Assembly (NCBI GenBank): GCA_949751835.1
Contig: CATKHK010000001.1
Span: 248,001-312,000 of the forward strand
Reading direction: 5' to 3'
From: Blepharisma japonicum
Lineage: Eukaryota; Ciliophora; Heterotrichea; Heterotrichida; Blepharismidae
Length of the DNA stretch: 64,000 bases
This document shows positions 17,354 to 52,416 of the stretch, piece after piece. Each line of letters starts with the position of its first letter. Position 1 is the first letter of the stretch. The notes below the pieces were generated by a model. That model made no database searches. It saw nothing but the letters and a program-made list of their open reading frames with translations, and was not told where the DNA came from. The position numbers and the translations under genes were made by a program.

Positions 17354-18589
17354 TTAGAGAGATTTGGCTACCAAAACGCATGATAACGCGCAAATAACTA
17401 TCAAGCCTACAACTGAGAAAGCAATTACTACAGCAAGTTTCCACGTAGGCCAACCTTCAGAAGAAGATCTTTCTTTTGATTTTGCAAAGCCAATCCTTTT
17501 GTTATCCATATCAAAATGTAGGTAAAACCTTCTAATGAATTTTTCCCCCAATACCCAATAATCTATATCACTGCGATATTGAAGAGTTGGGTAGCAATTG
17601 TCTTCTTCAAAATGGAAGTAATCTATCGGTAATAGTGTAAATTCTTTATTAGATAGCACAAAAGTAATTTTAGGGTAACTCTCATCACAATCACAAGACA
17701 CGTAACCTAAGCCATCCTGGCTACAAGAATAACTGTTCACAAGAGTTAACAGAATATCAATCACATCATCTTTAGGGCCTATAATATTGCTAGAACTTGC
17801 ATAAATAATTGCTGATGTTCCTGAAGTGTAGCCTTCGTTATTAAATATTACACCGTTACAGGGAACTCGCCAGTATTTTGTTGATGTGACTAAGTTGACA
17901 TAGGTAAAGCTGTCTTCTGATGAATACTTATCTAAATCATATCCATCAATTATTAAAATTGAGCCTTTATGAGACAAATCTGATTCGTCTCTATTCTCAC
18001 TGAGGTGTAATGAAAACTGCCTGTTTTTTATTTGGCCTAGGCTCTCCAAATTGGTAATTATTGAGCTTCCGTTGCTTGAAGCTTCAAAACCTAAGCCTAA
18101 TAGTCCGTCTGATTGCATACTAGCAAGGCCATCTTCAGAGGTCACCAAAATAAAAGGCTGGTGAGTTGCATTCAAATTTCCAATAGAAATAACATCGCTG
18201 CTCACATAGCCGCTTGATTCCCCTCCAGGAGTATAAAAATGCTTAAACTCGGTCGTGTTGTCGTAAGTCGATGAGGCTCGTGGGTTAAATGTATTATTAG
18301 CATGACAGCTGTTGCAGTTATTTGCATCAATTCAGGTTCATGTGCTTACTGTGTCAATTCAGAGTGTAAACTCCTGAGGACGGGTCCCAATAGTTGCTTC
18401 GATGAAGTATTCGACCTAAATAGAGCCTACATTTTTATAATTGGTGGCGCTTATAGATGTTGAAAGTTCGCGTGGAGAAGTGAGACTAGAAATGGTATGC
18501 TTTTCTATGCCCTTTTCTATAGCTCTTCTATATAATGGCATTGATATAGCTGCTAGGGCTACAGAAAGTCTTATACATAGTAAAAACAT
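17354..18589 (-). CDS. Pepsin-like (A1) type I membrane protein, second catalytic Asp lost
   Basis: Starts at the ATG at 18589, with a 15-nt intron at 18416-18430 (GTAGGCTCTATTTAG), and gives 406 residues. A signal peptide (about 1-19), then a two-lobed pepsin fold: VEYFIEATIGTRPQEFTLWI, active-site region DTVSTWTW (Asp74, the usual DTG changed to DTV), flap and hydrophobic core DGLLGLGF, KNRQFSLHLS, and the end-of-domain block RRFYLHFDMDNKRIGFAK. The second active site, normally (D)TGS/T, reads AIIYASSSNIIGP, so Tyr258 replaces Asp. A membrane helix (LAVVIAFSVVGLIVICALSC) and a very short tail close the protein. Without the second Asp it should not be a normal aspartic protease. Five TGA-Trp codons or fewer are used. 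Confidence 0.9.
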
Positions 18590-19290
18590 TTAAATTATTA
18601 TCTTTATTTATGCTTTCTTGATAAATCAACATATTGTTTCTATATTTTATAATTTTTAAAAGGTCGAAAAATTATAGATGGAACATTTTTAATGATTATC
18701 AAAGCCAAAATAATTTTAGATGAATAAAATTTTGATATGTGTTAATAAACAGGCTTATAATTACTCTCGATATAAATCAAATTATCAATAATAATATTAA
18801 TAGCATAAAAGACAAGAAATAATTATATTTTTAATTTTTCATTTATTTCTTTAGATTACTATATTTAGGATCTTTTGATCAATTACTATAAATTAGAGGA
18901 ATTTCATTTCTAGCTTATATGTCTATTTTAAGATGATTGATAAAAGTATAATCTAAAGTTATATTTATCCCTATGAAATGCTAAAAGGTAAAAGGCATGC
19001 AAATTAAAAAGTACAGTAAGAATTATGATATGGTCCAGAAATAAGATTATTCTAGTAACTTATAAGTTTCGCTTTTTACCAGAATCAATAAATAAAGAAG
19101 AAGCTGTTTCAGGAAATACCAAAGACACAGTACTAATTTTGTTATAAGAAGGCTAATATTTCTTGAAAATACAGATTTTTTAAGGAAAATTTGACTAGAT
19201 TAAAAACTTATGCTAGCCTAATCCTATTTGCATAAGAGTAGAAAATATTAATTTGATTTAATAAGAAAGGTGATGATAAGTTTTCACCTA
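18590..19290. other. Intergenic with a piece of duplicated flank
   Basis: AT-rich spacer. Its right part (about 19090-19245) resembles the DNA just upstream of the decayed pepsin-like copy (about 20225-20380). No gene seen. Confidence 0.45.
19198..19241 (+). repeat. Direct repeat, copy 1 of 2
   Basis: A 44-bp block that contains ACTTATGCTAGCCTAAT and TTTGCATAAGAGTAG recurs at 20333-20375 with a one-base length difference. It is the best conserved part of a longer weak similarity, probably a remnant of the duplication that made the two pepsin-like copies. Confidence 0.75.
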
Positions 19291-20201
19291 ACTCTCATCG
19301 CAATCATAAGACAAGTTACCTAAGCTATCCTGACTGCAAGAATAACTGTTCACAAGAGTTAAAAGCATATCAAGCACCTCATCTTTAGGGCCTATGATAT
19401 ATCTAGCACCTGTACAATAATTGCTCATGTACCTAAACAGAAGTAATTTTTATCAAACATTACACCATAGCAGGGAGCTTTCTAATCGTTTGCCAATTTG
19501 ACTAAGTTGACATAGGTAAAGCTGTCTTCTGATGAATACTTATCTAAATCATATCCATCAATTATTAAATTTGAGCCTTTATGAGACAAATCTGATTCGT
19601 CTCTATTTTCACTGAGATGTAATGAAAACTGCCTGTGTTTTATTTTGCCTTGACTCTTCAAAGTGGTAATTATAGTTTCCACCGCTTGAAGCCTCAAAAC
19701 CTAAGCCTAATAGTCCGTCTAATTTTAAACTATCAAGGCAATCTTCAGAGGTCACCAAAATAAAAGGCTGGTGAGTTGCTATCAAATTACCAATATAAAA
19801 GATATCACTACTCACATAGCCTCTTAAATCTCCTTTAGCAGTATAAAAATCTTTCAACTGATTTGTATTTTCATAAGTTGATGAGCTTGCATATTAAATG
19901 TGTTATTAGCATGACAGCTATTGCAGTTATTTGCATCAATTCATGTTCATGTGGTAAAAGTATCAATTCAGAGTTTAAACTCCTGAGGAGGGGTTCCAAT
20001 AGTTGCTTCGGTGAAGTATTCGACCTAAATGGAGCCTATACATTTTTATAATTACTAATGCTTACAAAATGTTGAAAGTTTGTGTGGAGAGGTGAGACTA
20101 GATATGGTATGCTTTTCTATGCCCTTTTCTGAGACTCTTCTATATAATGGCATTGATATAGCTGCCAGAGCTACAGAAAGCCCTATATAGAGCATAAACA
20201 T
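19291..20201 (-). pseudogene. Decayed copy of the pepsin-like gene at 17354-18589
   Basis: This stretch matches the minus strand of 17354-18589 along its length, from the initiator ATG (20201) and signal peptide through lobe 1, the first active site (now DTFTTW) and most of lobe 2. The match stops near 19291, so the C-terminal third with the membrane helix is missing. Several small length differences of one or two bases shift the frame (near 20055, 19895 and 19675). An in-frame stop appears near 19485, and the shared intron has grown from 15 to 17 nt (20025-20041). It looks like a fairly young dead copy of a host gene. Confidence 0.88.
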
Positions 20202-26774: not shown

Positions 26775-29700
26775 ATGATAGAAGAATGCTTGAATTTTAT
26801 TCTATTTTTATGTGGGACTTTAAAACCCTCAGGACTATCTGCAATTTATTTGGCATTTGGCATATTAATTTGGCTTATTCTTCTGCTTACAGTTCAAGTT
26901 CCACGTGCTGTTTACAAATATCTAGGCATTTCTAGTGTTTTACTGAATTTATGGAAATTAGTTATGCTAATTATATTTTATTCTGATAAAAATTCAACAT
27001 TTTTCTCTGATCACAAAGAAATTCTGAAAATTTTAGGAGTTTTTTATCATGACACAAGTGAGCTGAACTATGTGTCTGCCGCATCTTTTTATCCTGATTT
27101 AATTGCATTTCTTGTTAGTTTAATTGGGTATTATTACGGAAATACAAAACTTAAACTCAGCAACAATTTCAGAAGGATGCTTAATTTATTTTTGACTTTT
27201 TCAATGGTGATGGCAAGCTGCATTTCATCATTTTCTTTTGTGAATGTACTTTATATAATTATAGCAATGTATTGGGTTTTAACTTGAAGCTATGGAATTT
27301 ACCCTAGGTTATATCAGCTAGGATGTAGAGTTATATCAGTAGTTACATTGTTACAGATCCTTAGCTCTTATCTCTATAATATGGTTCTAGATAACTATTT
27401 TTCTTCTGTTGACGCGATTCGCTATGGAATTATCCTACCAACTTACAGTGACTATTTTAATTTTTTTGTCGTTTTTGCGTTGCATGGATTTTCTACTGTT
27501 TACGCAAGAAGAGCTTTATTGAATCCAGACGAGCATAGAGCTGTTTTAATACAGCCTGAAGAAGAAATTAAAGATAATGAAGAAAAAAATTTCAATTCAA
27601 CGCTTGGAGATGAAGATTTAAATGAATCTGTTCCTTTTGAGTTATCCAGATCTCTATTACAAGCTCCAAAACCGTCTTTAGAAGAATTTTCAAGAGAGTC
27701 TCAGATACCTGAAGTTTTAAAGCCAACTTCTCCACCTAAAAACAAAATGAAAATTTCTAAAATTCCTCTTCAAATTATCAAATTTATTTATGCCGTGATT
27801 TTTTCATTTGCATTTCTATACTTAGTAGCTCGATTTTTACTATTTTTATGAATTTTTCATTACATGAGTATCTTAGGATGCTTTGAGATGCTGTGACTTT
27901 TTTATTCTTTTATAGATGACGATGATAGTCGAACAATAAAAACCGTCAGGTTTATCTTATGTCCAATGCTAGTTATTCAGTTTTTTACTACTTATGTGCT
28001 TAATATTTTTGATGTTAACCCTAATAGTCAGTATGGATTCCCTAAGCTAGTTTTTCCTGCACTTGATGTAGGTTTTCAACTTGCAACTATTTTTTTATTT
28101 TTATACCTCACAAGATCAATCCGTAAAATGATCAAAAAGCAAGCGAAAACAGATGGAAACTCGTCTTGGGACATGCTTTTAACCATAGTTTTGCAGAACG
28201 CTGACAAATTTTCTATAAGTGTTTTATTTGTAGTCGGTCTCTCGGCTATAAATTTAGTGCACACAGGATTTATGATAATTTGTTTGTTTTTTATGCTAAA
28301 TTTTAATTTAGCAAAAAAATTTTGGATTGTTCTGGTGATTTATACAATGAGCGTTCTTTTCATCAGATATTTATGGCTGCTTATTTTATCTCTTATTAGT
28401 AAAGACAGCTTAAATGAGACAGTGCTGGATTTCATTGGCCTTCCTATAGAAAATAGTGCTGAAGATGACAAGGTAAATATCCTTCCTTATGATTTTTTAG
28501 TATGGGTGCTATTATTTTCAGCAGCCATGCAGTTAAGGGCTTACAAGGCAACTATGTTTTCTTTAGTTTATCATGAGTTTACAAGGGTAGAAGTTGCCAA
28601 AAATCAACCATTTATAGTGAAAACTATTATGAAAATATATAGATGGTATTATAGACTAGAAATGTGGGCAATTTATCTGTTTATCTTTATACTGTTTTTA
28701 ATAGCAAAATTAAATTGACTAAATTTTGCAAGAATGGCTTTAGGATGTGGATATTTGTTTATTCATTTATACGGCAATTTGAATGAAATTTCCAAAAATT
28801 ATATGAAAATTAAGTCTATATGGCCTATAATTGTGTATTATAGTGGAGTTTTATTAGTTATCAGATACGTCTATCAGTTCATTCCTTTTATAAAAGCTAT
28901 TACAAATTATAATTTTCCTTTCATAGGGCTAGAGGTTTATAGCTCGAGTGATTTATATGAGAGCATGGTCACCGATTGCCTACTTTTGATTTTTACTGTA
29001 TTAGGCTCCAGATCTCATAAAAAAGATGATGTAAAATTTCGACCATCTCAATCTGACCAATTTGAAGATGTTGGACTTATACAAGGACTTGTCCAAGCTA
29101 ATATGTCTATAATTGAGCAAGATATTGGCCAAAATGCTTATTTTAAATTTATTCATCCTTGGTTTCAGCTTATAATCTTTTTCACGGTTTCTATATTGGC
29201 ATCGCAGTGGAAGCTCTCGATTTCTATGGGAGCTTATATTGCTATAATAGAAATTTATTATTTTTACAATACTTTATATATGTCAGAATATATCCAAAAA
29301 AAATCATCTCTAGACTCTGAAAAAGAGCATAGATATCGCTCTTTATTATGAGCGGCTTTATTTACAGCCACTCTATGCAACTTAATCCTCTCTTACTTAG
29401 GATTCATTATAAACAAAGATTTCATGGGCGATAATTCTGATAACATTTTATGGTTTTATGTGTGGATCGGATATGAGCAGCCTGATGAAAGTTTTCTAAT
29501 AAAAAATTGTTACGGGTACTTAATATTGCTGATTTTTCTCGTAATTGAAAGACATTGTCTAGAATTTATTTTGTTTGAAAAAGTTCTTTTAAGTGATGAG
29601 GAAAAGCTCCAGGCCAAGAAAAGCAAAAGCCTTACGAAATTTTTGAATTTTTTAAGAGTATTAGCAGAAGCATTAGTCCCTATGTTTATTCTTTTAATTG

Positions 29701-32700
29701 CGTTTAGCAAATTAACATTTGTTAGTGTGATTTATGTGATTGGGGTATTTTTATCAATTTTATTAGGAACGACTTTTACAAGAACAAAATTTTTAAATTA
29801 TTTATTGCTCGCCATGACACTTGTGCAGTATGCTTTACTTGTCGGAAATCTGCAAAATAAGAATTCTCCAACCTCTTTGCCTGTTGACAGTCCAATTAAT
29901 GTTCCATGGTATCCGCACAAAACATGGGAAAACGATGATGTTCCAGTATTTTTTGGCTTAGGAACCAGCATAGGCCAGTTACATAGCATTATATGAGATT
30001 TATTAACTCTATTATTTTTATATATCTATTATACATTTCTATCAGCCAAAGAAAATGAGCTTGAATTGCTTGGTGATGAGGAAGAAGTGGTAGATTTATC
30101 AAGTTCAGAAAAGAGTCAGAGACAGAGCGAAAAAGAAAAAGAAAAAAGTGAGGAAAGCAAAAGCGATGAAGAAGAACAAAAAATTGAAGCAGAAAAGCTT
30201 GATATTTTTAAAGACTCACACTCTCTTGAAAAGATTGAAGAAGCTAAAGACACTTCGCTGGAGTCTTCTAGCTCGAATAGCTCAACTGGATCTATTGACA
30301 GATTTTTAGAAGAATCTAAACAACAGCATTCAAGAGTCCCTAGTGCAGCCCCTGCTAGAAGTGAAGCTTCCCACCATTCACTTCCTCAGATCCTCCCTCA
30401 AGCAACCAGCAACGTATCAGAAGTCAATAGGAATTCTCAAGAAATCCCATTTGGTACTTTTGATACTGCTAAATTTGACATCCCAAAGTCAGAGCCCTCA
30501 AAATTCAACAAAGAAATTCTTCTGAAATTTAAAAGCGCCTTTTATAACTCTTCACATTTCCTTATCCTCCCAATAGTATTGTTATTTATTTCTCAAAGCC
30601 ATGGCTTGATATCTGGTGTTTATTGTTTATTCTGCTTAATTTTTATATACAAATCGAATGAAATTATAAAAAGTGAGAAAAGCTGAAATCAGTATCTGAA
30701 AATCTTGAGGAATTATTTTTTGATTTTTATGCTTATAGATCTGACGCTGCAGATTATTTATCAATTACCAGTTGAAGAAATGCATTCTAGCAGCACAGCA
30801 ACAGATTGGGTTGAATCAGCTGGTCTGATGCAACTATGAACAGCTGGTGGCAATAACCCAGACGATGCAGGAAACAAACAATTAAAAATAAATTTCAAAA
30901 TTTTTACTTTTGCATTCCTCTACATGATGTACAGGATGATGAAAAGTAAAGATTTTACTGAACATATGAAAAAACAACGGCAAAGCTTATTAGAAGAAAG
31001 CAGAAAAATAGGCCTAGAAATAGCTCATTATTTCAATGATAAAAGGATTGAAGAAAATAAATCCTATCAAGAAAAGCGTAAAAGGTTTGAAAATGAGTTA
31101 TTAAAACTTGACCAAAATGTCAATAAATGAAGCAAAAAGTTTTATGGAAGTGAGAGCAAAAAAAGCTCTATTGGGTATATGCTAAGGCAAAGAGATAGAA
31201 GATTCACCTCAAAAATAAGATTTTCAAGGGCAAGCGGCATTGGTCAGCCTCCTTCTTCTACAGCTCCACTTGAAGCTGTGGTAACCGAGCAAAAAGAATC
31301 CTTTAAAATCCGCTTCCAAAACCTGCTTATAAACTTGATAAATCCTGTGATTTTCAAAAACTATATCAAAAAGCTTAAAGAGCACGAAAAGAAAAATGCA
31401 TCACAGGATGTATCTCCTATTAAAATCGAAGAAATAAAGTTTACAGACTCTTCACCTATGGGAGAGCAAGATGAGTTGGAAGAAGAAGTCAATCTGAAAG
31501 ATGATTTACCAATGCAAAGAGCTGAATATGACTTGACATGGAAAAATTATATTGTGCTGATAGCATATGCAATTGCAAGTAACACTGAATATTTAGTGAT
31601 TTTGTTTTTCTTCGTGAATCATTTTGTATATGCCAGTTTGGAGTCAGCTGTTTTTCCTTTATCTGTTCTAGGCTATGCAATGCTTGAATATCCTCGACCT
31701 CCTGCTAGGTATTTTAGATATATGCTTTTATATACCATAATTGTCTTTTTTATCAAATACTGCTTACAATTCCAGCTGTGAGGATATGTATTCGAAAACT
31801 TAGATAAATATGAAGACACATATAAAATTGGTTTTAATCTTGCTTCAAATACTTATAGCCAAAATTTATTTGTTTATATTTTCTGAGATGTTGTAGTTAT
31901 GCTTTTACTGATTTTCCATGAATATTATTTACTCAGAGTTGGGCTATGGCCACATACAGAATTTGATTTAGAAAGCTTAAAAGAAGCCAAAAAAAGAAAA
32001 CTCTTAGAAATGGCTAGCGAAGAAACAATTGAGCAGTCACAAATTCAAATTCGACCATTTAAAGAGCCTCAAAGATCGTTTTATCAAAAAATCCGAGCTT
32101 TTTATGGAAGACTATTACCAAGAAACAAGGAAGAAAAACCTGGCTGAGACTTATACACCCCTACAGTGCTTGCCCAATTACTTATCTTTTTATATATTTT
32201 ATGCTTTTTTTCTGATATGGATGGGCAAGCTACAAATATATCAAGATCCTTTGCGTAATATTTATTTAGTGCCAATCAATTTTCTGGAAGAATGGTCATA
32301 GCTCTGATTTTACAAATGGCAGCAATCATTTTCGAACGTTTTTTATATTTGACTCGTACATCTCAAGCATTAAAATTAGCCTTATTACGATTAAGTAATG
32401 TAAAGAACGAAGAAATTTGTCAAATACAGTGGGACAGACCTTTACAAATAAAATTACTGTGACATATTTTGCTCCTTTTGACTATTCATTGGCTCGTTTT
32501 TTGGTATTTTCCACTATATGGCAATTATATGATGGTGGGAGAATATAACTGCCAAAGCAAATATGATAACGAGAGATGCAACAATTTTCAAATAAATTAC
32601 TCGCTAGAAGGCTTTTATGTCCTTTATATGATTTATTTCATAATAGCTTCTTTACAAATCCAGCATGGTCTGCCAAGCTTTAGAACTGGATCTTTTCCTT

Positions 32701-33959
32701 TACAAAGAAATGTATCAAGTGGATCTCGCTATGGGTTTTTATTGTATAGAGGATTGCCGTTCATATTTGAATTAAGGACATTGATAGACTGGACAGCGAC
32801 AAAAACTTCGTTAGATATTTTTCAATGGTTTAAGTTCGAAAATATATATGCCCGCCTTTATGTGACACAAGTATCACAACGGTGATATGGCTCTCACGTC
32901 CGTGGACAGCCTATAAAAAAAGGCAATAAAATAGCGAATGGTTGCATTGTATTGATCTTTTTATTGTGTATCATACTAATGCCATTACTAATATTTAGCT
33001 CTCTCAATCCTATTATAGAATCCAATGGTGTGAAATCATTAAGCGTAGAAATAGGAACAATTGTGGATGACAATAATTATTTTCGGCTATATTTAGCTTC
33101 AAGAGTTAGCGATATGCATTATATTACTACAAAAGAATGAAATGAAAACAAATTTAATAAACTCAGAACTATACAAGCTGCAGATAAAGACCTCATGCAG
33201 ATTATAGTGATGCCTACAAGTGCAGATACTGAGTGAAACATGACACCACCAAGTCAGCAGCAGCTATGCAATTCTCTGGTAGATGCCTTGGGGCCTAAAA
33301 AAACTACGATTGAACTGCAAATTACTTATACCTTCGTCAGAAAATACCCACAAACTGTCCAAAGAATATCTGAAGAGGTCTCATATCCTTTATCCACTGA
33401 GCAAATCTTGGATTTAAATAGCGTAATTTGCCTAGGCTTTACCAACAGCTTTTCATATGAGAAATTCGAACGAGTTATATATAGGCTTCCAAGTGCGGGA
33501 AGTAGCATTTCACCTGACTCAATTGAGGCTACTAACAGTTTACCATATGATTTAGTTATGAATTTAAATAAAACAGATACTAATGGCTTATTCTGGGAAG
33601 TCGGGTTTATGGACTCTTCTAAAAATTTTGTAGGGATGAATATTGTTACTATCAGTGAAAATTATAGTCCTGTCGCTTTTGGATTTTCTGTCATAACCTT
33701 TTATGTATCTGTCGTATGGCTCCTAGGTAGAATTATAAGGTCAACATTGGCAAGTGGAGGGAGTACTGGAGTGTTATTAACTGATATGCCTGATCCAGAG
33801 CCATTAATCAATTTGTGCTCTGGGGTTTATCTGAGTAGAATGACTGGAGATTTATTGAGAGAAGAAGAACTGTATTATGAGTTAATTGATATTTTGAGGT
33901 CGCCTGAGGTTACAAAGATGCTGACAGGAAGAAGCTCAATAAAAGAAAAAAATGATTAG
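26775..33959 (+). CDS. Piezo mechanosensitive ion channel
   Basis: A single 2389-residue protein once about sixteen TGA codons are read as Trp and the 15-nt intron at 32255-32269 (GTAATATTTATTTAG, phase 2) is removed; all twelve fragments share one frame. It has dozens of hydrophobic helices, as expected of the Piezo blade repeats. The C-terminal pore module is unmistakable: PFIFELRTLIDW, then FENIYARLYV, then RGQPIKK and ILMPLLIFSSL. An extracellular cap follows (about 2060-2300), then an inner helix and the cytoplasmic end PDPEPLINLCSGVYLSRMTG...LRSPEVTK. Animal Piezos are 2500-2900 residues. It should form a trimeric stretch-gated cation channel in the cell membrane. The gene ends with TAG. 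Confidence 0.96.
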
Positions 33960-34407: not shown

Positions 34408-36420
34408 ATGACAAAATTCTCACTATTTGCTCTCTTTTGGATGATTTTGTCATGTGCCGTTCTATTTCTGAAATACTGGGACGAAGACTATTTAGATAAT
34501 TTTATAAAAAGAAAGAAGCGGAATATCGATTTAGGCCCTTTAATGTATTTTGATCCTCCAGACGCTGGAAATAAAACTGCAACAGATGAGATCGCATACG
34601 ATAATGTTTTTAAGTTATATGACATCTATGACCTGAAATGTTCTCCTTTCTCATTCGGCTACAACTGAGAAGAAGCTGAAGCTTTATTTCCAAGCTACGA
34701 TTTTCCTTCATGCTTTTCTCAAATCACACAGCCAAAATGAAAGATTGTGGATCGGGTGTTTTCAATGAAATGCCAAAATTACTCGCGTGCTGCAATAGTT
34801 CAAGGCCCAACTGGAAAAGTAAAATTTCCATCCTGGAAAATTCATCAAGGATTATGGCAAGCTGAATCTTTTAATGAAAAAGAGCAATTAAATAAAAACA
34901 CTGACTTTCTTCTTGCTACTTGCGATTACAGTAACAATTTCGAAGTCGCATGACATAGGCCAATTTATAATCCTGAAATTCATTGAAATGCGCAGTGTTT
35001 GAGGCATAAAGAAAGATTACCTAAGCCTTTATTCATACTGACTTTAGGTTTAGACAGCTTTTCGAGAAGGCATTTCTTCCAAAAGCTGCCAGAAACAATC
35101 AAAGTTATAAATAGTTTTGCAAAGAAATTTAAGATTTACGATTTTAAATTGCATAACATTGCTGGGAAAGCGACCGCGGAAAATATAACTCCTATTTTTA
35201 TTGATGAGAAATATATAAAAAGGCTTAAAGCTTCCACACAAAAAGATAAGATGGAAGGAAGAGCGATCTGGGTAGATTTTATGAGCAGAGGATTTATCAC
35301 ATCATTACTGACTGATGATTGTGATTATAGAGTTTATGATAATATCGGCCCACAGCCTAATATTCACTATGTTTCTCGAAATTTTTTCTGTGCAGCCACC
35401 AAATTTACAAATTATATCACAGAAAAAAATGAAAAATTAAAACAGAGATGTATCGGGACTCAGATGTCCCATACTTATATTTTCCAATACTTAAATGATT
35501 TGCTAGATATGTATCAAGATGTTAGTCATTGGAGCTACGTTCATCTTAACGCTGCTCATGAAGCTACAGGGAGGCACGCACAAACTTTGGATCCAGACCT
35601 ATCTGAATTTTTACTGACATTTTTGCCAAAAGTCTCAAAAACACATGATGTTATGATTAATTTATTGGGAGACCATGGGATGCGATATGGCAATTATAAA
35701 ACATCGGTTAATGGAGACCAGGAAATGAAACTTCCAGCCTTTATCATGATAATAAGCGAATTTTTCATAAAATCAGTACTGACTGATGAAATATTGCAAA
35801 TAAACACAGAGCGATTAGTAACAAAACAGGATATTAGACAGACCTTTCTAGAGATTGTAAATAGAATTGACTATGCCAGGCGCTCAAAAAATAAACATGC
35901 TTATGATTTATTCACAGATGAAATCCCACTTAACAGAAATTGTGATGTTAATGCTCACATTCCAATGAGGTACTGCGCTTGCTTGAGCTATAGAGAAGTT
36001 AAACCTGAGTTTTGGAATGCTAAAAGCTTTAAGGGGTTGGTAGATGACTTAATTCAAATTGCTTGTGATCATATGAATTCAGTTGTCCATACGCCAGGTG
36101 TATCATCTTTTAAGCTATGCCAAAAAATTGATGTTGGTGAAATTATTGGAGTTTTTCATAATCCAAATTTTTCATTTTTAAGTATGAGAATTGAATTCAA
36201 AGCAAAATACTCCCATGCTAGATTTCTAGTCGAATATCGAATACACATAGACGATAAAGACAATTATGGAATCCCGATTATTTTTAATTACCAAAGACTA
36301 CTTGTTCAAATAGCTATGATTACAAGGCAGGATGCATATGCAGGCCCATGTGAAGAAAAAAGTAACAAATTAGGAGTAAGACCAGATTTCTGTATTTGTG
36401 AATATGATACAAAGGCATAA
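34408..36420 (+). CDS. DUF229 family protein (sulfatase/alkaline-phosphatase-like fold)
   Basis: This gives 670 residues when four TGA codons are read as Trp. A hydrophobic segment near the N-terminus (about residues 3-22) predicts a type II membrane protein with the body outside the cytoplasm or in the lumen. The core follows DUF229: LFILTLGLDSFSRRHFFQKL (the Ser region takes the place of the sulfatase nucleophile), FKLHNIAGKATAENITPIF, WSYVHLNAAHEATGRH and the metal site LLGDHGMRYG. Known DUF229 proteins occur in animals and ciliates, with unclear substrate. A C-terminal Cys-rich region (CNxNxHIPMRYCAC, CQK, PCEE, DFCICE) probably forms disulfides. Confidence 0.85.
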
Positions 36421-41998: not shown

Positions 41999-43414
41999 AT
42001 GATACTTTTACTATCCCTGTTTTCCCTAGTCTTTTCTTACGATAACCAAAACCCACTTTTCAACTCTGAGCCTACTATTGTGGGTGCCTCTAGCGACAAA
42101 CTAAAAATTCTCTTTTCCATAGGCCGAACAACCCTTAAAGTACTTCAGGGCACATCTTCTTATATTGATATTACACTAAACCAGACCTATAAGTTTGCTG
42201 ACGATCTCTACTACGGCTACACAGTTCTCGACCTTAATTCTAAATCTCTTAAGTGAAAACTTTATGATTTTGCAGGAAGAAAAAGCAAATGCACAACAGT
42301 TTTCATGACAACAGAAGAAAGTATACCGTCTTCAGATATTTGCGAACAAAAAGGCTGCCCATTAGCATTTGTAGGTGACCACTGATGTGACGCTCAATGT
42401 CTTTACCCTGAATGCGGATTTGATTCAAAAGACTGCGAAAATATTGATCAGTTTAAATTATTGCAATGCGACCCAATTACAATAGGAGATGGGACTTGCA
42501 ACCAAGAATGCAATAATGAGCTGAGTTTTTTTGATGGAGGAGACTGCAAAACCCCTTGTTCTTTAACTGGGTGCGGTTCGAAACAGTTAGGAAATGGTAT
42601 TTGTGATCCTGAATGCAAAAATAATGAGTGTAAAAATGATTTCGGAGACTGTGATTTATGTGCCATAGGGTGTACTGAAGATATGCTAGGGAATGGAAAT
42701 TGTGATCAAGTTTGCAATATAAAAGAATGCTCTTACGATTTCCATGACTGTGACGCAATTTCATGCTTTGACACTGGATGCACTTTTGATTTACTGGAAA
42801 ATTCATATTGTGATTCTATATGTAATAATACTCACTGTAATTATGACGCTGGAAGATGCATTGAATGTGCATCATACGGCTGCTCTGCTGAGTATGTTAA
42901 TGATACCCATTGTGATACTTCATGCTTTAATAGTGCATGCGGATACGATGGTGTGGATTGTGTAAAAAAGACCTGCAAATCTAAAGGGTGTAAGAAAGAA
43001 TATATCCAAGACTCTAAATGCGATGTGGCTTGCTATCATGAAGATTGTGCCTGGGATGGAGGGGATTGTGAAAAATACTTTTGCTCTGAAGGGTGTTTGC
43101 CTGATATGCTGACAAATGGAGTTTGTGATCTCCAATGCAATGTTGCTAAGTGTGGCTATGATAATAATGCTTGTCTTAATGAAAAAATATTGTGTGCCAG
43201 CGACTGCTTGAATGATTGGATTGGAGATGGGATTTGTGATCCAGCTTGCTTAAATAAAAATTGTAATGATGATGGAGGTGACTGTGCAGCAAGTCTTATG
43301 CTAAAAGAAGGAGTTTTAACAATTAATGGTATCACTTATACTGCAAATACTCAATGTATTCGCTCAGGGGCAGAAACGTTATTTGTGTCCTTTATAATAG
43401 TTCTTTTGACATAA
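41999..43414 (+). CDS. Secreted/GPI-anchored protein with nine LNR (Lin-12/Notch) repeats
   Basis: This gives 471 residues with TGA-Trp codons at 42254-42256 and in GDHWCDAQC. A cleavable signal peptide (MILLLSLFSLVFS), a roughly 100-residue domain without homology, then nine Cys-rich repeats of about 33 residues from residue 115 to 435. Each has six cysteines and the calcium-binding core xGNGxCDxxC...C.xDxGDC, as in LGNGICDPEC...NDFGDC. The C-terminus is a short hydrophobic tail (ETLFVSFIIVLLT) without basic residues after it, fitting a GPI-anchor signal. LNRs in Notch guard a protease site. Here there are no EGF or ankyrin repeats. The gene opens the surface-protein cluster. Confidence 0.88.
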
Positions 43415-43572: not shown

Positions 43573-45188
43573 ATGAAATTAATTTGCCTGTTTATTTCAA
43601 TCACTTTTGCTGCAATATCAATCCCTTTAATTTCAAAAAATAGCCCTCAGAGAAAGTTCATTAAGCATGACATTGGGAATTCTTCGTCATCTTTTCGAGA
43701 ACTAGTTTCGTCTACAGCAATAACAAATTATAATGACGTAAGTGATAAGTAGTACGAATATTATATACAAGCTAATATAGGCACTCCACCTCAAACTTTT
43801 AATTTCCTTGTTTCCACAGGAACCGCTTGAATCTGGATTGATATAAAAAATTGCAAGACTTGCCGTTCCGAGAGCAGCAAGTTTGATCCAAACGCATCTC
43901 TAAGTCTGACTTCTTCGAATAAATATCAATATATAACTTATATTGGACAAGTAAGAGGCTACCAAGACACTGAAACAATAAGTATTGGGAATAACACTTC
44001 ACTGCAAGTGACGTCACAAACGTTTGTTCTAGTTGATTACGAGTGGGGAACTCAAGGATTTTTTCCTGATGGGATTATAGGATTTGGTTTTGACCAGCTC
44101 GCCTCCAATACTCAGTCCTTTATGACCTCTTTAAAAAGTCAAGGCAAAATCAATAAAAAACAGTTTTCAATCTATTTAAACTATACAAACCGTCCTTCTG
44201 ATATCCCAGATTTGGGTTCCTCAATGATTATGATAGATGGAGATACAATCTATCGAAATATTCAGCTGAAGCTGATTTTACTTATGTAAATTTAGCAAAT
44301 TCCAAAGGGTTTTGGGAAATTAATTGTGATTTTGCACAATTTGATAATGTAAATTATACTACTGGGCTTACAGCTATTATAGATACTGGGCTTTATTATA
44401 TTCAAGGACCAAAAACTGATGTTATAAGTATAATAAGAAAATTATTGAATAATTATGGATGTGCAGTTGACAGTGATGGGTATCCTTATTGTAATTGTGG
44501 AAACAGCTATCCAAACTTGATTTATCAATTAGGTGGCTATCAGTTTACAATCCAATCAAATGATTATTTTGAAAAATATGAAGGATTATGCTACCTTCAA
44601 TTTGGGTACTCAAATGGAAACTATTGGGGTTTAGGTGATGCTTTTTTGAGACGGTTTTATACTAATTTTGATATGGACGGAATGAGAATTGGTTTTGCCA
44701 AGATTGGCTTGAGTTCATCAAGCACTAGCAGTTCAAACAATACTACTCAGACTAATGATAATACAAGTTCGACAAATTCCAATAGCGGCTCCCAAAATAA
44801 TAATGAAACATCCGCAAATTCAACAGAATCTTCAAATAATAATTCTTCCTCCTCATCTTCAAACTCGACTGATACCACAAATACGACATCTTCAAGCAAC
44901 TTTACAAGCTCTTCACCAAATGCGGGAGCTAGTCCTTATGGCTCAAGCAGCAATAATCAAACCGGAGGCAATTTCGGAAATTCTAATTCTCAAGGAAGCT
45001 CCGATGATTCTGAAGGCCTAGCAAACTGAGAATTAGTTTTAATTATTACTATCCCCACTGTGATTATAGCTGCAACCTTTTCTATTATTACAACTATATT
45101 TTGCTATAAAATGAAGAAATTGAGAGCTAGAAGACATGGAAATGGGAATGAAAATAATAATCATCGAAGTTTCTCTGTTGATATTTAG
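43573..45188 (+). CDS. Pepsin-like membrane protein with a frameshift; first catalytic Asp lost
   Basis: Exon 1 (55 codons) has a signal peptide and ends NYND. A 15-nt intron (43738-43752, GTAAGTGATAAGTAG) is followed by YEYYIQANIGTPPQTFNFLV. The first active site reads STGTAW, so Ser76 replaces Asp. The second site keeps Asp (AIIDTGLYYIQGP). Between them, near 44240-44256, two extra bases relative to the paralogs shift the frame; the downstream frame stays open for over 300 codons, through YTNFDMDGMRIGFAKI, a long Ser/Asn/Thr-rich stalk (about 120 residues) and a membrane helix (LVLIITIPTVIIAATFSIIT). Either a recent pseudogene or a sequence error. The coordinates cover both frames. Confidence 0.75.
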
Positions 45189-45852
45189 ACTAAAATGTTT
45201 AATAAGCAATTTTTATATGAAAGTACTTCATAAATTATTAAATACCCTTAAAATTCAATTTATAAGGATTTACGAGAATTGCATTTGAACGGAGTATAAA
45301 GCTAGAAATATGTAAGCTTAGAAACACAATTATAACCCAGAACGCGTTTAGAATCGTCTTGAATGATAGTATAATTAAATCCCTTGTGACTTTTTGCGTA
45401 TCTGTAACTGATCTACTGGCCACAATCAATCATCGATTCAGGCTGAAAAATATATAACTCGTGCTCCCAATAAAACAGTTTGCTGGTGCTCGAAAAAATC
45501 CCAGCGGATATATTCATGAACTACTTTATAAAGAGCGAGTGTGTTTTATTTTTTCTGTATATTTTATCGGTAAGTAGCTATTGCTAATTTCTTGCTATTT
45601 CATTTTTTATTACGCATATAAAATTCTGCGTTATGCATTTGCATCAATAAAAGTTCTGTTTCTTATCTTGGGTCTAATAAGAAATATTTACCTAATACCA
45701 TTAATTAATAGTTCTATAAAAAATGGAAATTCGCACAACAATTATGGCTCGCTAGGATGCTAATATGATATCCTATGTTCTATAAAAAGTAAAATATCGT
45801 ATAATAATTATGCCCAGTCAACAAATACTTGCATATGGTTTCTTAATAATAA
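45189..45852. other. Intergenic; upstream region of the next pepsin-like gene
   Basis: Mostly AT-rich. A minus-strand open stretch around 45238-45525 encodes a hydrophobic peptide but lacks an ATG and a family match. The last 140 bp carry the duplicated upstream motif listed separately. Confidence 0.45.
45712..45812 (+). repeat. Two copies of an upstream motif before a pepsin-like gene
   Basis: The motif TTCTATAAAAAATGGAAA, followed by a TCG and ACAATTATG-like end, starts at 45712 and again, more diverged, at 45778. The same double arrangement, with similar spacing, occurs at 47950-48050 before the next pepsin-like gene. The second copy lies about 75 bp before the ATG. It is either promoter DNA kept after duplication or a functional element. 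Confidence 0.65.
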
Positions 45853-47355
45853 ATGGCAATAGTTTATGCTTGCCTATCCATTGCTCTAGCAGCTATTTCT
45901 ATGCCTTTATACAAAACTTCTTCACATCGAAGCATTGGAAATAAAAATCTATTAAGCCAAAATTCTCATCCGCGAGAGCTTTTTTTATCCTTTAATGTTT
46001 CCAATTATAATGACGTAAACTTCATTTAGTATGTATATTACACCAAGGTTTCAATTGGAACGCCTCCTCAGCAATTTTTATTCATAATTGACACAACTAG
46101 TGCTTGAACATGAATTCCTTGAAATCAGTGCAGGCGTTGTCATACTTACGGTGATAAATTTATTAAGAAAAACTCTACAACCTATCTCAATACCACAGAA
46201 GTGAAGCGTATTAAATATTTTGATGGCTACTTAAGCACAGATACCTTTTCTATTGGAGACAGCGATTCTTTAGTTTTAGCTGACCTACCTTTTATTTTAG
46301 TTTATGATGAAAAACAAGAAAATCTTAATATGTGACAGGACGGAGTACTGGGTTTCGCATTTGATGAACGGAGTGCTGGGGCTACCTCGATTATGACCTC
46401 ACTAAAGAATAAAGGTAAAATCCAGAGCAAGCAATTTGCACTTTACTTAAGTGAGGCAAATGTCAATTCAAAGATGGGTGGCCTGGGAAGTTCATCCTTC
46501 ATACTTGATGGGTATGACCTGGAAAAATATTCATCCGAAAGTGCTTTTACTTATATCGACTTAGTCAATTCTAATGGACTATGGGAAATCAAATGCGATA
46601 AAGTAGAGTATTCAGGCGTCGAATATAATAAAGGTAAGACTGCTGTTCTTTGAACTGGATCGAGTGAAATTGTAGGTCCTGAAGATGATATGCGTAGTAT
46701 TCTGGCATATCTCTTCTCCAGCCCTGACTGCCAATATAAAGATACCTATAAAGGCACCTATTGCAAATGCAATGGGACTTTTCCTTCTTTAACGTTCACG
46801 TTTTCTGGCTATCCATTTACTCTTGAGCCCAGCGATTATTTTTATATTGATGATGGAAATTGCTATCCAAATTTTAATTCCATTAAATTGGATCATTGGA
46901 TCTTAGGTTCCAGCTTTCTCAGAAGATTTTATATTAACTTTGATATGGATGGAAGGAGAGTTGGGTTTGCAAAGATAAAATTAGTACCTCAAGAAGAAGA
47001 TAATAATGATAGCAGTTCTGGAGGCACAGCTGACTGAAAAATAGCTATTATTGTTGTACTAAGTATATTTGGCGGGCTATGAATTATAATAGTAGGAACA
47101 TTGCTGCTAATGTATTTGGTGAAAATTCATGTTGTAAGTAAGGATGAAAAGCCGACTGCAGAGAATTCTAGTTGTATAAAAGAAATGGCGAAGACCATAT
47201 CTAGTGCATCTAGCGCTGATGCAAGCAATAATAGATATGAAGAAAGAAAAGATACAGAAAATGAAAAAAGAGAGGGGAAAAAAAGTGACAAGACAGCAGG
47301 AATTATCAACTACCCAAAGTTAGAAGAAGTAAATATAATAGTTGAATGCAATTAA
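45853..47355 (+). CDS. Pepsin-like type I membrane protein, second catalytic Asp replaced by Trp
   Basis: This gives 495 residues after removing the 15-nt intron 46015-46029 (GTAAACTTCATTTAG), which follows NYND as in its relatives. Signal peptide 1-19. First site FLFIIDTTSAWTWI keeps Asp75, with TGS changed to TTS. Second site reads AVLWTGSSEIVGP: Trp262, from a TGA codon, replaces Asp. Other pepsin features are intact, including DGVLGFAF, QFALYLSE and RRFYINFDMDGRRVGFAKI. A membrane helix near residue 395-420 is followed by a 90-residue charged cytoplasmic tail. If TGA were a stop, the gene would appear broken at the active site. Confidence 0.9.
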
Positions 47356-48088
47356 TACTAAACGAGCCTACTTTAAGGATGCTTATGTTTTCTTAAACAA
47401 AACTCTTCAATTTGAAAGTGCATATATTATTGTTGATTCCTCACTTAGGAGTTCCCCCAGAGTTTGAAATGGCAAATCCAGCTAAAATTTCGTCAATAAA
47501 AAACTATAATGACTCTCAGGGTCTATGTTTAATTAATTCATACACTTTATGGCTAAATTGGATAAAATATATGTGAATTGGTCAAATAATTTTTGATTGA
47601 GTCTGAAATAGCTTTATCTATCCCTCTTAATTTACAAAAAAGAGAATTATCTATATATATACCTAAATGGATTGCCTTTTTTACAGATTGTTCTTTATGC
47701 ATTAATGATAATATATTTGCATTTTTTTAAAAGGAGACTTTAAGAAAAATTTTTAAATAAGCTAGTAAAAGTCCCTGTTATCCTAGAAGATATTATGCTT
47801 ATTGGGTTTTTCATCAGAGTTGGTTACATTTTACACTATATTATGCTATTAAAATATTTTTACCTTGTGTGAAAGTTTTACAATTTTAGCTTACATAAAA
47901 GTTCAGTTTCTATATAATCGATGAGCACATTTATTTTACTACTTAAAAGTTCTATAAAAAATGGAAAATCGTATAACAAATATGGCTATTTAATTACCAT
48001 TTTTCATGAGATCGATATTCTATAAAAGAGATAAATTGTATAACTATCATATTTAATTAGAAGATTGTGAGCTATTTTATAATAATAA
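47356..48088. other. Intergenic with a possible exon-1 relic and upstream motif
   Basis: AT-rich spacer between two pepsin-like genes. Around 47440-47515 there is a peptide-like stretch ending in KNYND that resembles the end of exon 1 of the family; the rest is not recognisable. Confidence 0.4.
47950..48050 (+). repeat. Two copies of an upstream motif before a pepsin-like gene
   Basis: Copies of TTCTATAAAA(A)ATGGAAAATCG start at 47950 and 48018, matching the pair at 45712 and 45778. The second copy lies about 71 bp before the ATG at 48089. Confidence 0.65.
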
Positions 48089-49636
48089 ATGAAAATATTA
48101 TTTGCTTTCCTTTCGATAGCTCTAGCGACTATATCTATACCTTTACATAGAGCCACCTCATCTGAGAGTGTAATAAAACAGGCTTTGTCAAGCTTAAGTT
48201 CTCCACCTCGTAAGCTTTGATCATATTCTAACATCACTAATTATAAAAATGTAAGCTTTATTTAGAACCAATATTATATTCAAGCTTCAATAGGAACTCC
48301 TCCTCAAACATTTACTTTTTTAATCAATACAGGGAGCTCTTATACTTGAATTGATGGAGCTGACTGCCTTGATTGTCATAATGGCAGCAAGTTTAATGCA
48401 AAAAGCTCTTCAACTTATCAAAATACTACTAAAACACAATTTATATCAAGCATGAGTGGCTCCTTAAATTGCTCTTTGGGTACTGATATTATTTCTATTG
48501 GGTCCAGTGATTCTTTGGTGGCAACTGGCCAGCCCTTTTATTTGACTTATAGTGGATCTTGGTATAGTGAATTTAAAGCAGACGGAGCAATAGGATTTGC
48601 TCCTAATTTATTGGAAGGTGAGATGAGCTCGCTGATTAGCACATTAAAGAGCGAAGGAATAATCCAACATAGGCAATTTGCTCTCTACCTTAACGGAAAA
48701 AATACCTATTCAGATTTACCTGATCATGATAGTTCGAACATAATGATCGATGGGTTTGATCTTGAAAAGTACTCAATAGAAAGTAGTTTTCATTATATAA
48801 ATTTATACGTAAGCGATGAGTTGTGGGAAGAAGATAAAGGCTTATGGGAAATTGACTTTTATTATATGAGTTTTGGAGATGAAATCGAATACAGCACTAA
48901 AACAACAGCTATTATTGACACAAGCATCAGCAGTATTATTGGCCCTTACTCAATGATAAGAGATATTTTATATAGTACCTGCTTGAAATCTATCAATGAT
49001 TGCTTTTGCTTATGCAATTCAAGCTATCCTGACCTATTTATATATATGGGTGACTGCAAATTTACTATGCGCCCAAGTGATTATTTAATACCTTTAGGAG
49101 AAGGATACTGCAAGCCAGCTTTCGATTGACTTAGTGGGATAGACTATTGAATCTTGGGTGATATCTTCGTTCGCAAATTTTATATTAATTTTGATATAGA
49201 TGGGAGGAGAATTGGATTTGCAGAAATTGAAGCAGATACGTTAAGGGAGACACCTTCTGTGTTCGAAGACAGTGACAGTGGGTATAATGGATCATCGGGC
49301 TCGTATAGCTCACATATGGATGAAGTAGGGTTTCCAACCTGAGCAATTGTTTTGTTAAGCGTACTGCCAGGGCTTATAGGCTTAGGATGCTCATTTTTCA
49401 TGTGCGTAATATTTAAAAATATTAATAGAAATTTGAGAGAGCAGATAATTTATAGAAATACAGCATCAGTAAATAGACCTAGCGTGACTGAACAAGCAAT
49501 AAATGAGAATTTAAATCAAGAAAGGAAAAGTATTGAAGGAAAAAATCTTGATAAAAATAATAATTTCACTGATGGGACAAATGAAAATGGTTCAAATCCT
49601 ATTGAAGGTGGTATAATGATGGGGGCTATTGAATAA
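48089..49636 (+). CDS. Pepsin-like type I membrane protein, first catalytic Asp replaced by Asn
   Basis: This gives 510 residues with a 15-nt intron at 48251-48265 (GTAAGCTTTATTTAG) at the family position, after NYKN. Signal peptide MKILFAFLSIALATISIPL. First site reads FLINTGSSYTWI: Asn75 replaces Asp while the TGSS that follows is canonical. The second site keeps Asp272 (AIIDTSISSIIGP). The closing block RKFYINFDIDGRRIGFAEI is intact. A membrane helix (AIVLLSVLPGLIGLGCSFFMC) precedes an 80-residue Asn/Glu-rich cytoplasmic tail. Four or more TGA-Trp codons are used. Confidence 0.9.
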
Positions 49637-50126
49637 AATAAAACAGCCAGTCAAGAATAGTCGAATAATTAATGGCCTTTTAATTTCAATTTATATTTTG
49701 CAAAATTAAATATCACAAATGCATACCAATTATAAAATTTAGCTTAATTTTGAGGTTCAATTGGCATTTTTTATATATCCTTCTTCAAAAAAATGAGCAA
49801 AGGGCTAGCTGAGAAAAATGATTTGATAGAAATTATTTTGCATGTAACTTTCTTCTAAAGCCTTAGTGAATAATTACCATAATGGCAAGCTTCGCTCAAG
49901 CGAATATGAGTCATAAATCTTAGAGCTAGCTAAAACCAAATGGCTCTAAAGGTAGCAAAACTCTGGAGAGAACACTTGGGATAGCTATGCTTCCCCTAGA
50001 CTTAAAAGCAAGAGACTGATGGCACAGCGTTAGTAAGTATTTCTAAAGGGTCAATCTGCAAATGGCAGTTTTAGTTTCAGAAGAAGGTATACCCTAAATC
50101 AAAAGGGTGTTAATGGCTTTAGCCCT
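49637..50126. other. Spacer with an unidentified insert-like stretch
   Basis: The stretch of about 49850-50105 looks richer in G+C than the surrounding spacers and has no open frame on either strand. It sits exactly where the body of the truncated pepsin-like copy should be. It has no tRNA or rRNA look that I can recognise. Confidence 0.4.
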
Positions 50127-50593
50127 ACATTAATTTTGACATGGAGGGCAGAAGAATCGGCTTTGCTAATATTAGAATGAGTCAGGACAGCGGAGACAAT
50201 GACGGAGGATCTAATAATAGTGGAAGTGATCAGGATTCTACAGAAAACGAAGATACTGGTGATAGCTCAGAAAGCTTTGCTGGATGGAAAATCGCTCTCA
50301 TTGTAGTGCTACCTACTGTTGCTGTAATCGCACTTGCAGCTGCAATTGGAATAAAAATATATAAAAACAAAACAAGAGGAAAACCTGCTAGAGAGCTAAC
50401 AAGTTCATCTGGAACAGAAAAAGAATTAAGTAATAAAGCAAGCACCCTCTCTAATAATGATCAAAATAATATTGCAGGTGATAAGAATGAAAAAAATGAA
50501 AGTGGTACTGTAGAAAACAATAAAAAGAAAGAATCTAAAATCGAAAATGCTGAAGAGCACAAAGAAGAATTAAAATCTGAAAATAGAGCTTAA
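50127..50593 (+). pseudogene. 3' remnant of a pepsin-like gene
   Basis: Homology to the family begins abruptly at YINFDMEGRRIGFANI, the last block of lobe 2, and runs through an acidic linker, a membrane helix (WKIALIVVLPTVAVIALAAA) and a 90-residue charged tail to a TAA at 50593. Both lobes, the active sites, signal peptide and intron are missing. The remaining 155 codons are intact, so truncation is recent or the tail is still expressed from an unknown start; no signal peptide is visible for that. Confidence 0.75.
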
Positions 50594-50783
50594 AAGGAAT
50601 GTGAATCAAATAAATAATATTATTTTACTGTTTCATCAGTCTAATTGTATATTTTAAAGAGACATAAACTAATTACATAAAAATTTCTACTTAAGTATTT
50701 TCAAATAAAAATCATCATTGAAAGAGCTTTCCAAATATTAATACTTTATTAATATTTTTAATAATCTTATTATTGTGGAAAAT

Positions 50784-52416
50784 ATGAAGTTATTGGATCT
50801 TTGGATATCCCTTGCTTTGGCTTCAGTCTCTATCAATCTTCATTGAGGTTCACTAAGAAATAATAATAAACTGGATGAAAGAAAAATTCACTCATGGCCC
50901 TCAAATTTAACACATTCTAATGTTCAATCTAATTCAAATTTTCAAAATGTAACCAATAATTTAGGAATTTTATTACACAGAGCTTTCATTAGGAACACCA
51001 ATGCAGTATTTTGCATTTCTAATTGATATAAATACAGAATGGACATGGGTAGAAACAATAGAATCTAAAAACTGACACACCGATCATCAATTCAACTCAA
51101 AACTATCCTCAAGTTTTTCAAATTCAACTAATAGGAAAGCTGTGGGAAGTCTTGAAGGAAAAATCAGTGGCTATGTGTGCACTGAAAATTTGGCAATAAA
51201 CAACTTTCTGATTCAAAATCAATCCTTTATTTTAGTTGACTATTATTCTGGTATAAAGGGCATCTCAGCAGATGGAGTTTTAGGTCTAGGGCTCGATTCA
51301 TCAGACGGAAAAGACTCTTATATAAATGCACTACAAAGCCAAGGGAAAATATCAAAGAAGCAGTTTTCCTTATACGTTGCAGGAGAAAAACACCTAGAGC
51401 CATTTTTATCAAGCTCAAATCTGATAATTGATGGGGACAATCTTTTTAAATATTCATCAGAAAAAGCTTTTACATATATTAGTCTTACAAATTCGAGTAG
51501 ATTTTGAGAAGTTCCATGCGAATCTGTGACATTTGGAGGAGCGGTTTATTTAGAAGCTAATACAGCAATATTTGAAACAGTATTTAGAGTGATTGCTGGG
51601 CCAGCAACTTCTATTTCTGATATTTTAAAAACCTTATCAACAGACTATGGATGTAAAATAGATAGCTTCAAAAATTATAAATGCGATTGTGGGGATATAT
51701 ATCCCGATATGACTTTCTATTTGGAAGGCCATGCGTTTACTATTAAATATAGCGACTACTTGAAGGAAGTTGATGGAATTTGTTACCCAATGCTCAAGTT
51801 TAACGGCGATGCTCGGCATTGGAGTTTAGGGACTAATTTTATGAAGAGATTTTATATGAGCTTTGATATTGATAAAAAGCAGGTTGGACTGGCAAAGGCA
51901 AGACTTCTTAAAATTTCTAATAAAGTAAGAGCCCCTCCTATCTCTAAAACTGCTGCAAGCGATCAACAAGCAGTCAATACAACAACAGCGAATACAAACC
52001 AAGTATCTGCAGCAGCAAACTCCACAGTAAGTTCTGGATCATCAAACTCAAGTGACTTATCAGCAGGTGAAATAGTTTTAATAGTTGTTTTACCTTCAGG
52101 AGTTCTGATTATTCTATTCTTCATTATCAAGGTTTTATTGTGGAGAAGGAGTCAAAAGGAGAAAGATCAGGAAAATAATATTAAGAAGCCTGCTGTTAAT
52201 AGTATTGAAGAGCCAGTTAGTAGAAAAGAAGAAAAAGAGGACTCTGCTTTAGGATCTAATGAAGATGAGATTTCCCATCTTACTTTTGATGTTGGGAAAG
52301 AGTTCTCAAGAGAAAGTGAGGTCTATGGAAAAGAAAATATGCATAAATTTGAGATAATTAAGACTGATTTAAGAGATACTGATCATAACGAAGAGGAAAG
52401 TTCGGATAATGAGTAA
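50784..52416 (+). CDS. Pepsin-like type I membrane protein, second catalytic Asp replaced by Glu
   Basis: This gives 538 residues. Its intron, at the family position, is 16 nt (50949-50964, GTAACCAATAATTTAG), the only one of that length seen here; the following exon reads EFYYTELSLGTPMQYFAFLI. First site keeps Asp76 but in the context DINTEWTW, without the usual Thr-Gly. Second site reads AIFETVFRVIAGP, with Glu259 for Asp. The remaining fold is normal (DGVLGLGL, KKQFSLYVAG, KRFYMSFDIDKKQVGLAK). A Ser/Asn/Ala linker, a membrane helix (IVLIVVLPSGVLIILFFIIK) and a 90-residue acidic tail follow. This is the most diverged member of the cluster. Confidence 0.88.

Follow-up and report, generated by a model that had tools for sequence, protein, structure and literature searches.

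Stepwise loss of the catalytic aspartates in a family of pepsin-like membrane proteins of Blepharisma japonicum, and its probable receptor-like products

The window analyzed here, a stretch of 64,000 nucleotides from the ciliate Blepharisma japonicum (contig CATKHK010000001.1, positions 248,001 to 312,000), carries five A1-type (pepsin-like) protease genes, each of which retains just one of the two catalytic aspartates. These copies, named below by their first position (Table 1), are probably part of a clade of type I membrane A1 proteins in which catalysis was lost stepwise and the protein shell was kept, yielding receptor-like pseudoproteases of which the one-Asp copies are intermediate and partly dying forms. 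The active site would have eroded step by step, with the pepsin-like domain, the secretion signal, and the membrane anchor retained. The window copies would most likely be non-catalytic binding proteins of the surface or endomembranes, with the old substrate cleft perhaps holding peptides or glycoproteins. As a rule, pseudoproteases are encountered only once such a change is complete. This genome seems to hold a series, with active enzymes in which D-T/S-G occurs twice, copies with one Asp, and a nearly fixed, Asp-less, receptor-like form with cytosolic ubiquitin-ligase-type modules. It thereby becomes testable in which order catalysis was lost and the cytosolic part acquired.

In re-made gene models, with TGA read as Trp and the 15- or 16-nt intron removed, one pepsin Asp position is retained in all five copies, at the very residues named by the first-pass annotation of this DNA. 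HMMER maps site 1 and site 2 of these copies onto Asp32 and Asp215 of pepsin, and their relatives in the PDB are pepsins and renins. The four whole copies match the family A1 profile (PF00026) over its full length, with E-values of 1e-37 to 1.2e-54, and both pieces of the frame-broken 43573 copy match it as well. An active A1 enzyme is expected to carry two Asp, each within D-T/S-G, and none of the five copies does. The retained Asp lies outside this motif in four of them (DTV, DTT, and DIN at site 1, and DTS at site 2 of 48089), leaving site 2 of 43573 as the only intact triad in the window. The flap tyrosine, Tyr75, is present in two copies (45853 and 43573) and is replaced by T, S, and S in 17354, 48089, and 50784, respectively. 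A signal peptide, a shared intron site, and a membrane helix had been ascribed to all copies. These features were recovered in the four whole copies, for which hydropathy and gene models, rather than a dedicated topology predictor, point to a type I layout (signal peptide, ectodomain, single helix, and cytosolic tail); in 43573, they were read only by eye. The shared intron sits just before the pepsin-like domain. A pepsin-like fold is suggested for the window copies by sequence homology. A search of the window ectodomains for the protease-associated (PA) domain gave no match at E 0.001, and the tail of 50784 has one weak TMEM154 match over the cut-off.

The surveyed genome comprises 45.2 Mb in 224 contigs, the window being part of contig C1. 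A PF00026 profile search of it returned 99 pieces, all of which were used; 14 were fragments, and 85 had the length needed for a full alignment. Both catalytic sites are readable in 80 copies, with the two pieces of 43573 counted as one, and 18 pieces with at most one site covered were excluded from the count. Both Asp are retained in 49 copies (D/D), the first only in six (D/x), the second only in ten (x/D), and neither in 15 (x/x). The one-Asp state is real, and the window holds five of its 16 representatives, but it is not the sole state: the idea that copies are kept at exactly one Asp fails against this 49/16/15 distribution, which makes “one Asp” an intermediate state, and against 13 sister-clade genes that have no Asp at their readable sites. 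Further losses are seen at C113:106509 and C10:610313 (D/S and D/A), at C4:224701 (D/S, among secreted pepsins), and elsewhere. Independently, the first Asp was lost (to Ser or Gly) in a second family of membrane A1 proteins, partly arranged in tandem, which occupies eight rows on contigs C24, C77, and C5 (C24:395300-405900, C24:303100-306000, C77:140349, and C5:425200-430000; loci L073, L074, L032, L053, and L036). In this family, D-V/I-G is found at site 2 in six of the eight rows and the flap Tyr in seven, and both Asp are lost in two.

The motif around the remaining Asp has also decayed. D-T/S-G is intact at both sites in 43 of the 49 two-Asp copies (43 of all 80). Of the one-Asp copies, one of six D/x has an intact triad at site 1 and one of ten x/D an intact triad at site 2, two of 16 in all (Fisher p 0.0007 and 4e-6, respectively, versus two-Asp copies, both values being too small because the copies are related). 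So, losing one Asp frees the other site, whereas complementary pairing would predict the reverse. According to that proposal, first-Asp-only copies would pair with second-Asp-only copies to rebuild one active site, and both kinds of single loss do adjoin in one cluster. No window copy, however, offers an intact first half; the sole intact second half sits in the frame-broken 43573; and the readable sites of the sister clade offer no Asp with which to pair. Since both Asp of A1 enzymes lie at the interface between the two lobes of one chain, pairing would also need a domain swap. Complementary half-enzymes can thus be set aside almost entirely, and the single-Asp copies are better taken as intermediate, partly dying members of a transition than as halves of a shared enzyme.

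The history of the losses was followed on a quick tree of 83 rows, with the catalytic columns removed, and on a second, more careful tree built from 34 of the rows. At minimum, the quick tree calls for five changes at site 1 and nine at site 2; Asp loss is therefore recurrent in the genome. A clade of 20 rows (support 100/100) unites the five window copies with the 13 Asp-less genes (site 1 being uncovered in one of these), with C59:140916, which is a canonical two-Asp protease (DTG/DTG), and with a copy on C74 that has both Asp in broken motifs (DTS/DLG). Within this clade, 43573 joins the 13 Asp-less genes at 96/93. Its site-1 codon is TCC, and TCN is found in 11 of the 12 Asp-less genes readable there, the other having Asn. 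This grouping of a Ser/Asp copy with Asp-less genes, together with the shared TCN serine, suggests a loss of site 1 that preceded the loss of site 2 on this line. It also speaks against the earlier claim of five independent losses, as the site-1 Ser of 43573 is common to its sister clade. A single clade of the five window copies is disfavored (approximately unbiased [AU] test, p 0.024).

In the Asp-less clade, Ser is nearly fixed, being found at site 1 in 11 of 12 genes and at site 2 in 12 of 13 (0.92 each, with a mean column conservation of 0.66). The residues around the two sites are barely above the mean (0.69 and 0.75), and these genes lack the flap Tyr. C-terminal tails of at least 200 residues occur in eight of these 13 genes versus none of 72 other models (Fisher 3e-8, with related rows; tail length was counted as far as the first stop found within 1100 bases, with introns mostly not modelled), and recognizable modules past the membrane helix, RING/IBR-like or Kelch, occur in seven. 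For example, in C99:7291, the Ser/Ser domain, the helix, and RING1-IBR-RING2 follow one another in a single open frame. Its tail matches Pfam IBR and IBR_1 over the cut-off, with RING1 having no separate Pfam match, and its best PDB match is ARIH2 (3.3e-12), with ARIH1 and parkin also matched. The ARIH2 alignment covers all three parts and places GCEHVEC of C99:7291 on GCNHMQC, the RING2 Cys motif, one Cys of which we take to be catalytic. The complete layout of an RBR E3 ligase, i.e., RING1-IBR-RING2 with the RING2 Cys, is found in C99:7291 only. In another example, the 1043-residue tail of C193:8120 matches RING and IBR over the cut-off and has a Kelch match about 870 residues in (E 2e-4). 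RING and IBR are likewise over the cut-off in the tail of C78:22619, that of C78:15365 has two RING-like units, and that of C78:29176 has Kelch motifs over the cut-off. Finally, the C99 RBR is matched by C156:28829 (44% identity, 5e-30) and C189:7181 (37%, 1e-23).

Outside the Asp-less clade, the C99 RBR has its closest relatives on C97 and C90 (38-54% identity). The two stretches that were read there, C97:34209, whose frame extends beyond the retrieved sequence, and C90:81123, show several RING-like units. The PF00026 genome search gave no A1 match on either contig, and these RING genes are a possible source of the C99 RBR. The genome has at least 137 matches to the family of the Kelch part, several of which appear by eye to lie near contig ends. 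A tandem array of IBR-containing genes is found at C125:85000-105500. In addition, C193:1-12300 resembles a diverged segmental copy of part of C78:14300-31000 (L071, L072, L043, and L044), with the same gene order, similar spacing, a synonymous divergence (dS) of ~0.07-0.11, and one gene broken only on C193.

One branch of the family would, then, have arrived at a nearly fixed Ser/Ser site joined to cytosolic RING/IBR-like or Kelch modules, giving a layout with a pseudo-pepsin outside, a membrane helix, and a ubiquitin-ligase-type part inside. A protein of the C99 type might transfer ubiquitin upon ligand binding. It is tempting to suggest a new class of receptors derived from digestive-type enzymes, in which first one and then both Asp were lost, the dead protease became the ligand-binding exterior of an RBR and/or Kelch-propeller interior, and the window keeps the one-Asp intermediates; this wider proposal is possible but tentative. 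The short-tailed window copies may serve in simple surface binding or, for some, in nothing any more. The single search of the open-access literature made for this combination found no paper on a pepsin-like or aspartyl protease domain combined with an E3 ligase or RING architecture, although the layout may still have been reported.

Altered but real catalysis has to be considered as well, as has a different chemistry in the Ser/Ser clade. Plasmepsin HAP is an A1 protein in which one catalytic Asp is replaced and activity remains, and HAP is among the PDB sequence relatives of these proteins. The near fixation of Ser at both sites in 13 genes would fit such a scenario, as would the separate eight-gene clade that lost site 1, which largely keeps the flap Tyr and has D-V/I-G in the six members with a second Asp. 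In the window copies and their sister clade, however, the neighboring motif and often the flap are eroded too: the flap Tyr is gone from the Ser/Ser clade and from three of the five window copies. Moreover, five different residues (S, N, Y, W, and E) replace Asp in the window, and a new catalytic pair is not evident. Taken as a whole, this evidence makes retained catalysis quite improbable.

A comparison of nonsynonymous-to-synonymous substitution ratios (dN/dS, omega), which the first-pass annotation had proposed, was run across clades. All values are below 1. One-ratio omega reaches 0.27 in the 13 Asp-less genes and 0.22 in the set of four whole window copies, above the 0.16 of the active membrane clade and the 0.12 of the active secreted clade. 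The five window copies together with C59 and C74 give 0.15, and the C24/C77/C5 family 0.17. On the five window branches, foreground omega is 0.17, 0.23, 0.25, 0.10, and 0.07, each significantly below 1 (twice the log-likelihood difference, 13.55-35.67), although synonymous change is near saturation and the branch values are rough. The pepsin-like domain has been under selection on every window branch, with catalytic residues lost, and the view of these genes as a surface-type pseudo-protease family was borne out to that extent. The value of 0.07 belongs to the frame-broken 43573, where it shows past constraint, so that the frame break may be recent. Eight whole-gene pairs lacking both Asp gave omega of 0.15-0.54, with one interval reaching 1.16 and one member lacking the start of the domain.

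These values also bear on plain birth-and-death, in which tandem duplicates are (nearly) non-functional and lose Asp at random, and in which frames are long since the losses are recent. The decayed sixth copy and the C-terminal-only fragment (Table 1) show that the A1 cluster turns over, and 43573 is frame-broken. The earlier statement that frames are mostly intact fails for this copy, whose frame changes near 44235-44245, and the 300-codon domains are open in the other four. An intron is an unlikely cause of the break, as removing 15 or 16 nt would not bring the frame back; among frame-restoring GT..AG lengths in the range of 12-59 nt, only 47, 50, and 56 nt are present, which differ from the 15- and 16-nt introns of this family. 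Elsewhere, one copy is split (C193:1060/1478) while its relative C78:15365 is whole. The raised omega of the Asp-less clade and of the whole window copies points in the same direction, as does the cytosolic tail of one Asp-less pair, which is not distinguishable from neutral. Set against this are omega values well below 1 on every window branch at a dS of at least 1.3 in the computable window pairs (decayed copy aside), the four open domains, and the conservation of Ser itself at both sites of the Asp-less clade. Birth-and-death as the whole explanation is thus unlikely, though by no means negligible.

A number of observations weigh against stepwise conversion into receptor-like pseudoproteases. 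The evidence comes from the sequence of one genome. Within the window, one copy is frame-broken, and 17354 compared with its decayed neighbor gives omega of 0.67 (0.36-1.08). The predicted structure of 48089, from window-only rows, is poor, with a mean predicted local distance difference test score (pLDDT) of 48. No RING, IBR, or Kelch was found at E 0.01 in six window tails and fragments, such that the receptor reading rests on the sister clade. The number of independent losses among the window copies is uncertain because three of them share a fork without a resolved order, and 50784 and the C74 copy are long branches. Outside the window, the two pieces of the split C193 copy give omega of 0.46 (0.18-1.06) and, for the 1060 piece with almost no synonymous change, 6.3. 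In the sister clade, the IBR stretch of C193:8120 and C78:22619 scores higher as FYVE, also over the cut-off; no RING2 was seen in these two tails, which do not show the full RBR layout; and the Kelch match of C193:8120 is below its cut-off. When these two genes are compared, omega is 0.72 in the tail (0.41-1.32, 339 codons) and 0.31 in the RING-IBR part (0.14-1.11), both intervals reaching 1. Finally, C156:28829 and C189:7181 end inside the IBR, with weak Pfam scores.

Several known systems invite comparison. Pregnancy-associated glycoproteins (PAGs) are mammalian and secreted, insect proteins of the Bla g 2 type are of a single-gene type, and TAXi proteins, of the xylanase-inhibitor type, are non-catalytic A1 relatives. 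The ARIH1, ARIH2, and parkin ligases, whose RING1-IBR-RING2 and aligned RING2 Cys motif are shared by C99:7291, are, to our knowledge, not membrane receptors with a pseudo-protease ectodomain. TAXi_N is over the cut-off on the first ~50 domain residues of four of the five window copies, but PF00026 fits far better and over the whole domain. The PAGs of ruminants and pigs make up a large pepsin-like family that arose by duplication; some members are active and others inactive, and binding of pepstatin or peptides is reported for them (PMC6221303). The ciliate family is likewise multi-copy, with predicted active and inactive members, but it has a membrane anchor and, in the sister clade, cytosolic modules, and the PAG modelled in PMC6221303 keeps both Asp, unlike the window copies. 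Bla g 2, Per a 2, and Lma-p54 are described as expressed, inactive pepsin-like proteins of cockroaches, and Lma-p54 may have a role in binding (PMC9541408); unlike these, the ciliate family shows several Asp states in one genome. The layout of C99:7291 is that of the RMR / PA-TM-RING sorting receptors and E3 ligases (the RMR receptors being from plants), described as type I proteins with a lumenal protease-associated cargo domain, one membrane helix, and a cytosolic RING (PMC12552968). As those proteins combine a PA domain with RING-H2, and C99:7291 combines an Asp-less A1 domain with an ARIH-like RBR, the latter is not an RMR member.

The gene models depend on the genetic code. In the A1 family alignment, columns filled by at least 30 rows contain 101 in-frame TGA codons. 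Of these, 60 fall where Trp is the commonest residue, and the other 41 are scattered across eleven other residue classes (most often S, 9; L, 9; and F, 8). The reading of TGA as Trp in the A1 family is therefore well supported, and the standard code, with TGA as a stop, was ruled out on the same grounds. In the Trp-commonest columns, the codon counts are 177 TGG versus 60 TGA. Introns of the family are GT..AG and 15-16 nt long. In B. stoltei, UGA is reported to encode Trp, and introns are mostly 15 and 16 bp (PMC9942806). No paper on Blepharisma and aspartic proteases was found in the open-access literature. Sequencing error, which would have explained away the lost positions, was rejected for Ser (TCC) and Trp (TGA), each of which needs at least two base changes from Asp; Asn, Tyr, and Glu are single-base changes, for which an error is possible.

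Table 1. A1-type copies and remnants in the window (positions within the window; codon and, where noted, triad given for each catalytic site).
Feature	Position (strand)	Length (aa)	Structure	PF00026 E-value	Site 1	Site 2
A1-type copy	17354..18589 (-)	406	signal peptide; 15-nt intron 18416-18430; pepsin-like domain 17480-18412; membrane helix	1.2e-54	Asp74, GAC 18353-18355 (DTV)	Tyr258, TAT 17801-17803
Decayed sixth copy	~19270..20200 (-), extent estimated		several frame breaks; only 19654-20007 still scores PF00026			
A1-type copy	43573..45188 (+)		frame-broken near 44235-44245; intron 43738-43752; Ser/Asn-rich stalk; membrane helix read by eye		Ser, TCC 43813-43815 (STG)	Asp, GAT 44382-44384 (DTG)
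A1-type copy	45853..47355 (+)	495	intron 46015-46029; membrane helix; charged tail of ~75 aa	3e-48	Asp75, GAC 46090-46092 (DTT)	Trp262, TGA 46651-46653
A1-type copy	48089..49636 (+)	510	intron 48251-48265; membrane helix	3e-45	Asn75, AAT 48326-48328 (NTG)	Asp272, GAC 48917-48919 (DTS)
C-terminal-only fragment	50123..50593 (+)		end of protease domain; stalk; hydrophobic helix; charged tail	no Pfam domain at E 0.01		
A1-type copy	50784..52416 (+)	538	16-nt intron 50949-50964; membrane helix; charged tail	1e-37	Asp76, GAT 51025-51027 (DIN)	Glu259, GAA 51574-51576

Other genes of the window include a DUF229-family protein (PF02995) at 34408-36420 (+) and a Piezo-type mechanosensitive channel at 26775-33959 (+), the latter read as two long frames (PF23188, PF24874, and PF12166) that are probably a single gene with a short intron. 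A protein with seven LNR (Notch) repeats and a hydrophobic C-terminus lies at 41999-43414 (+), immediately upstream of the A1 cluster.

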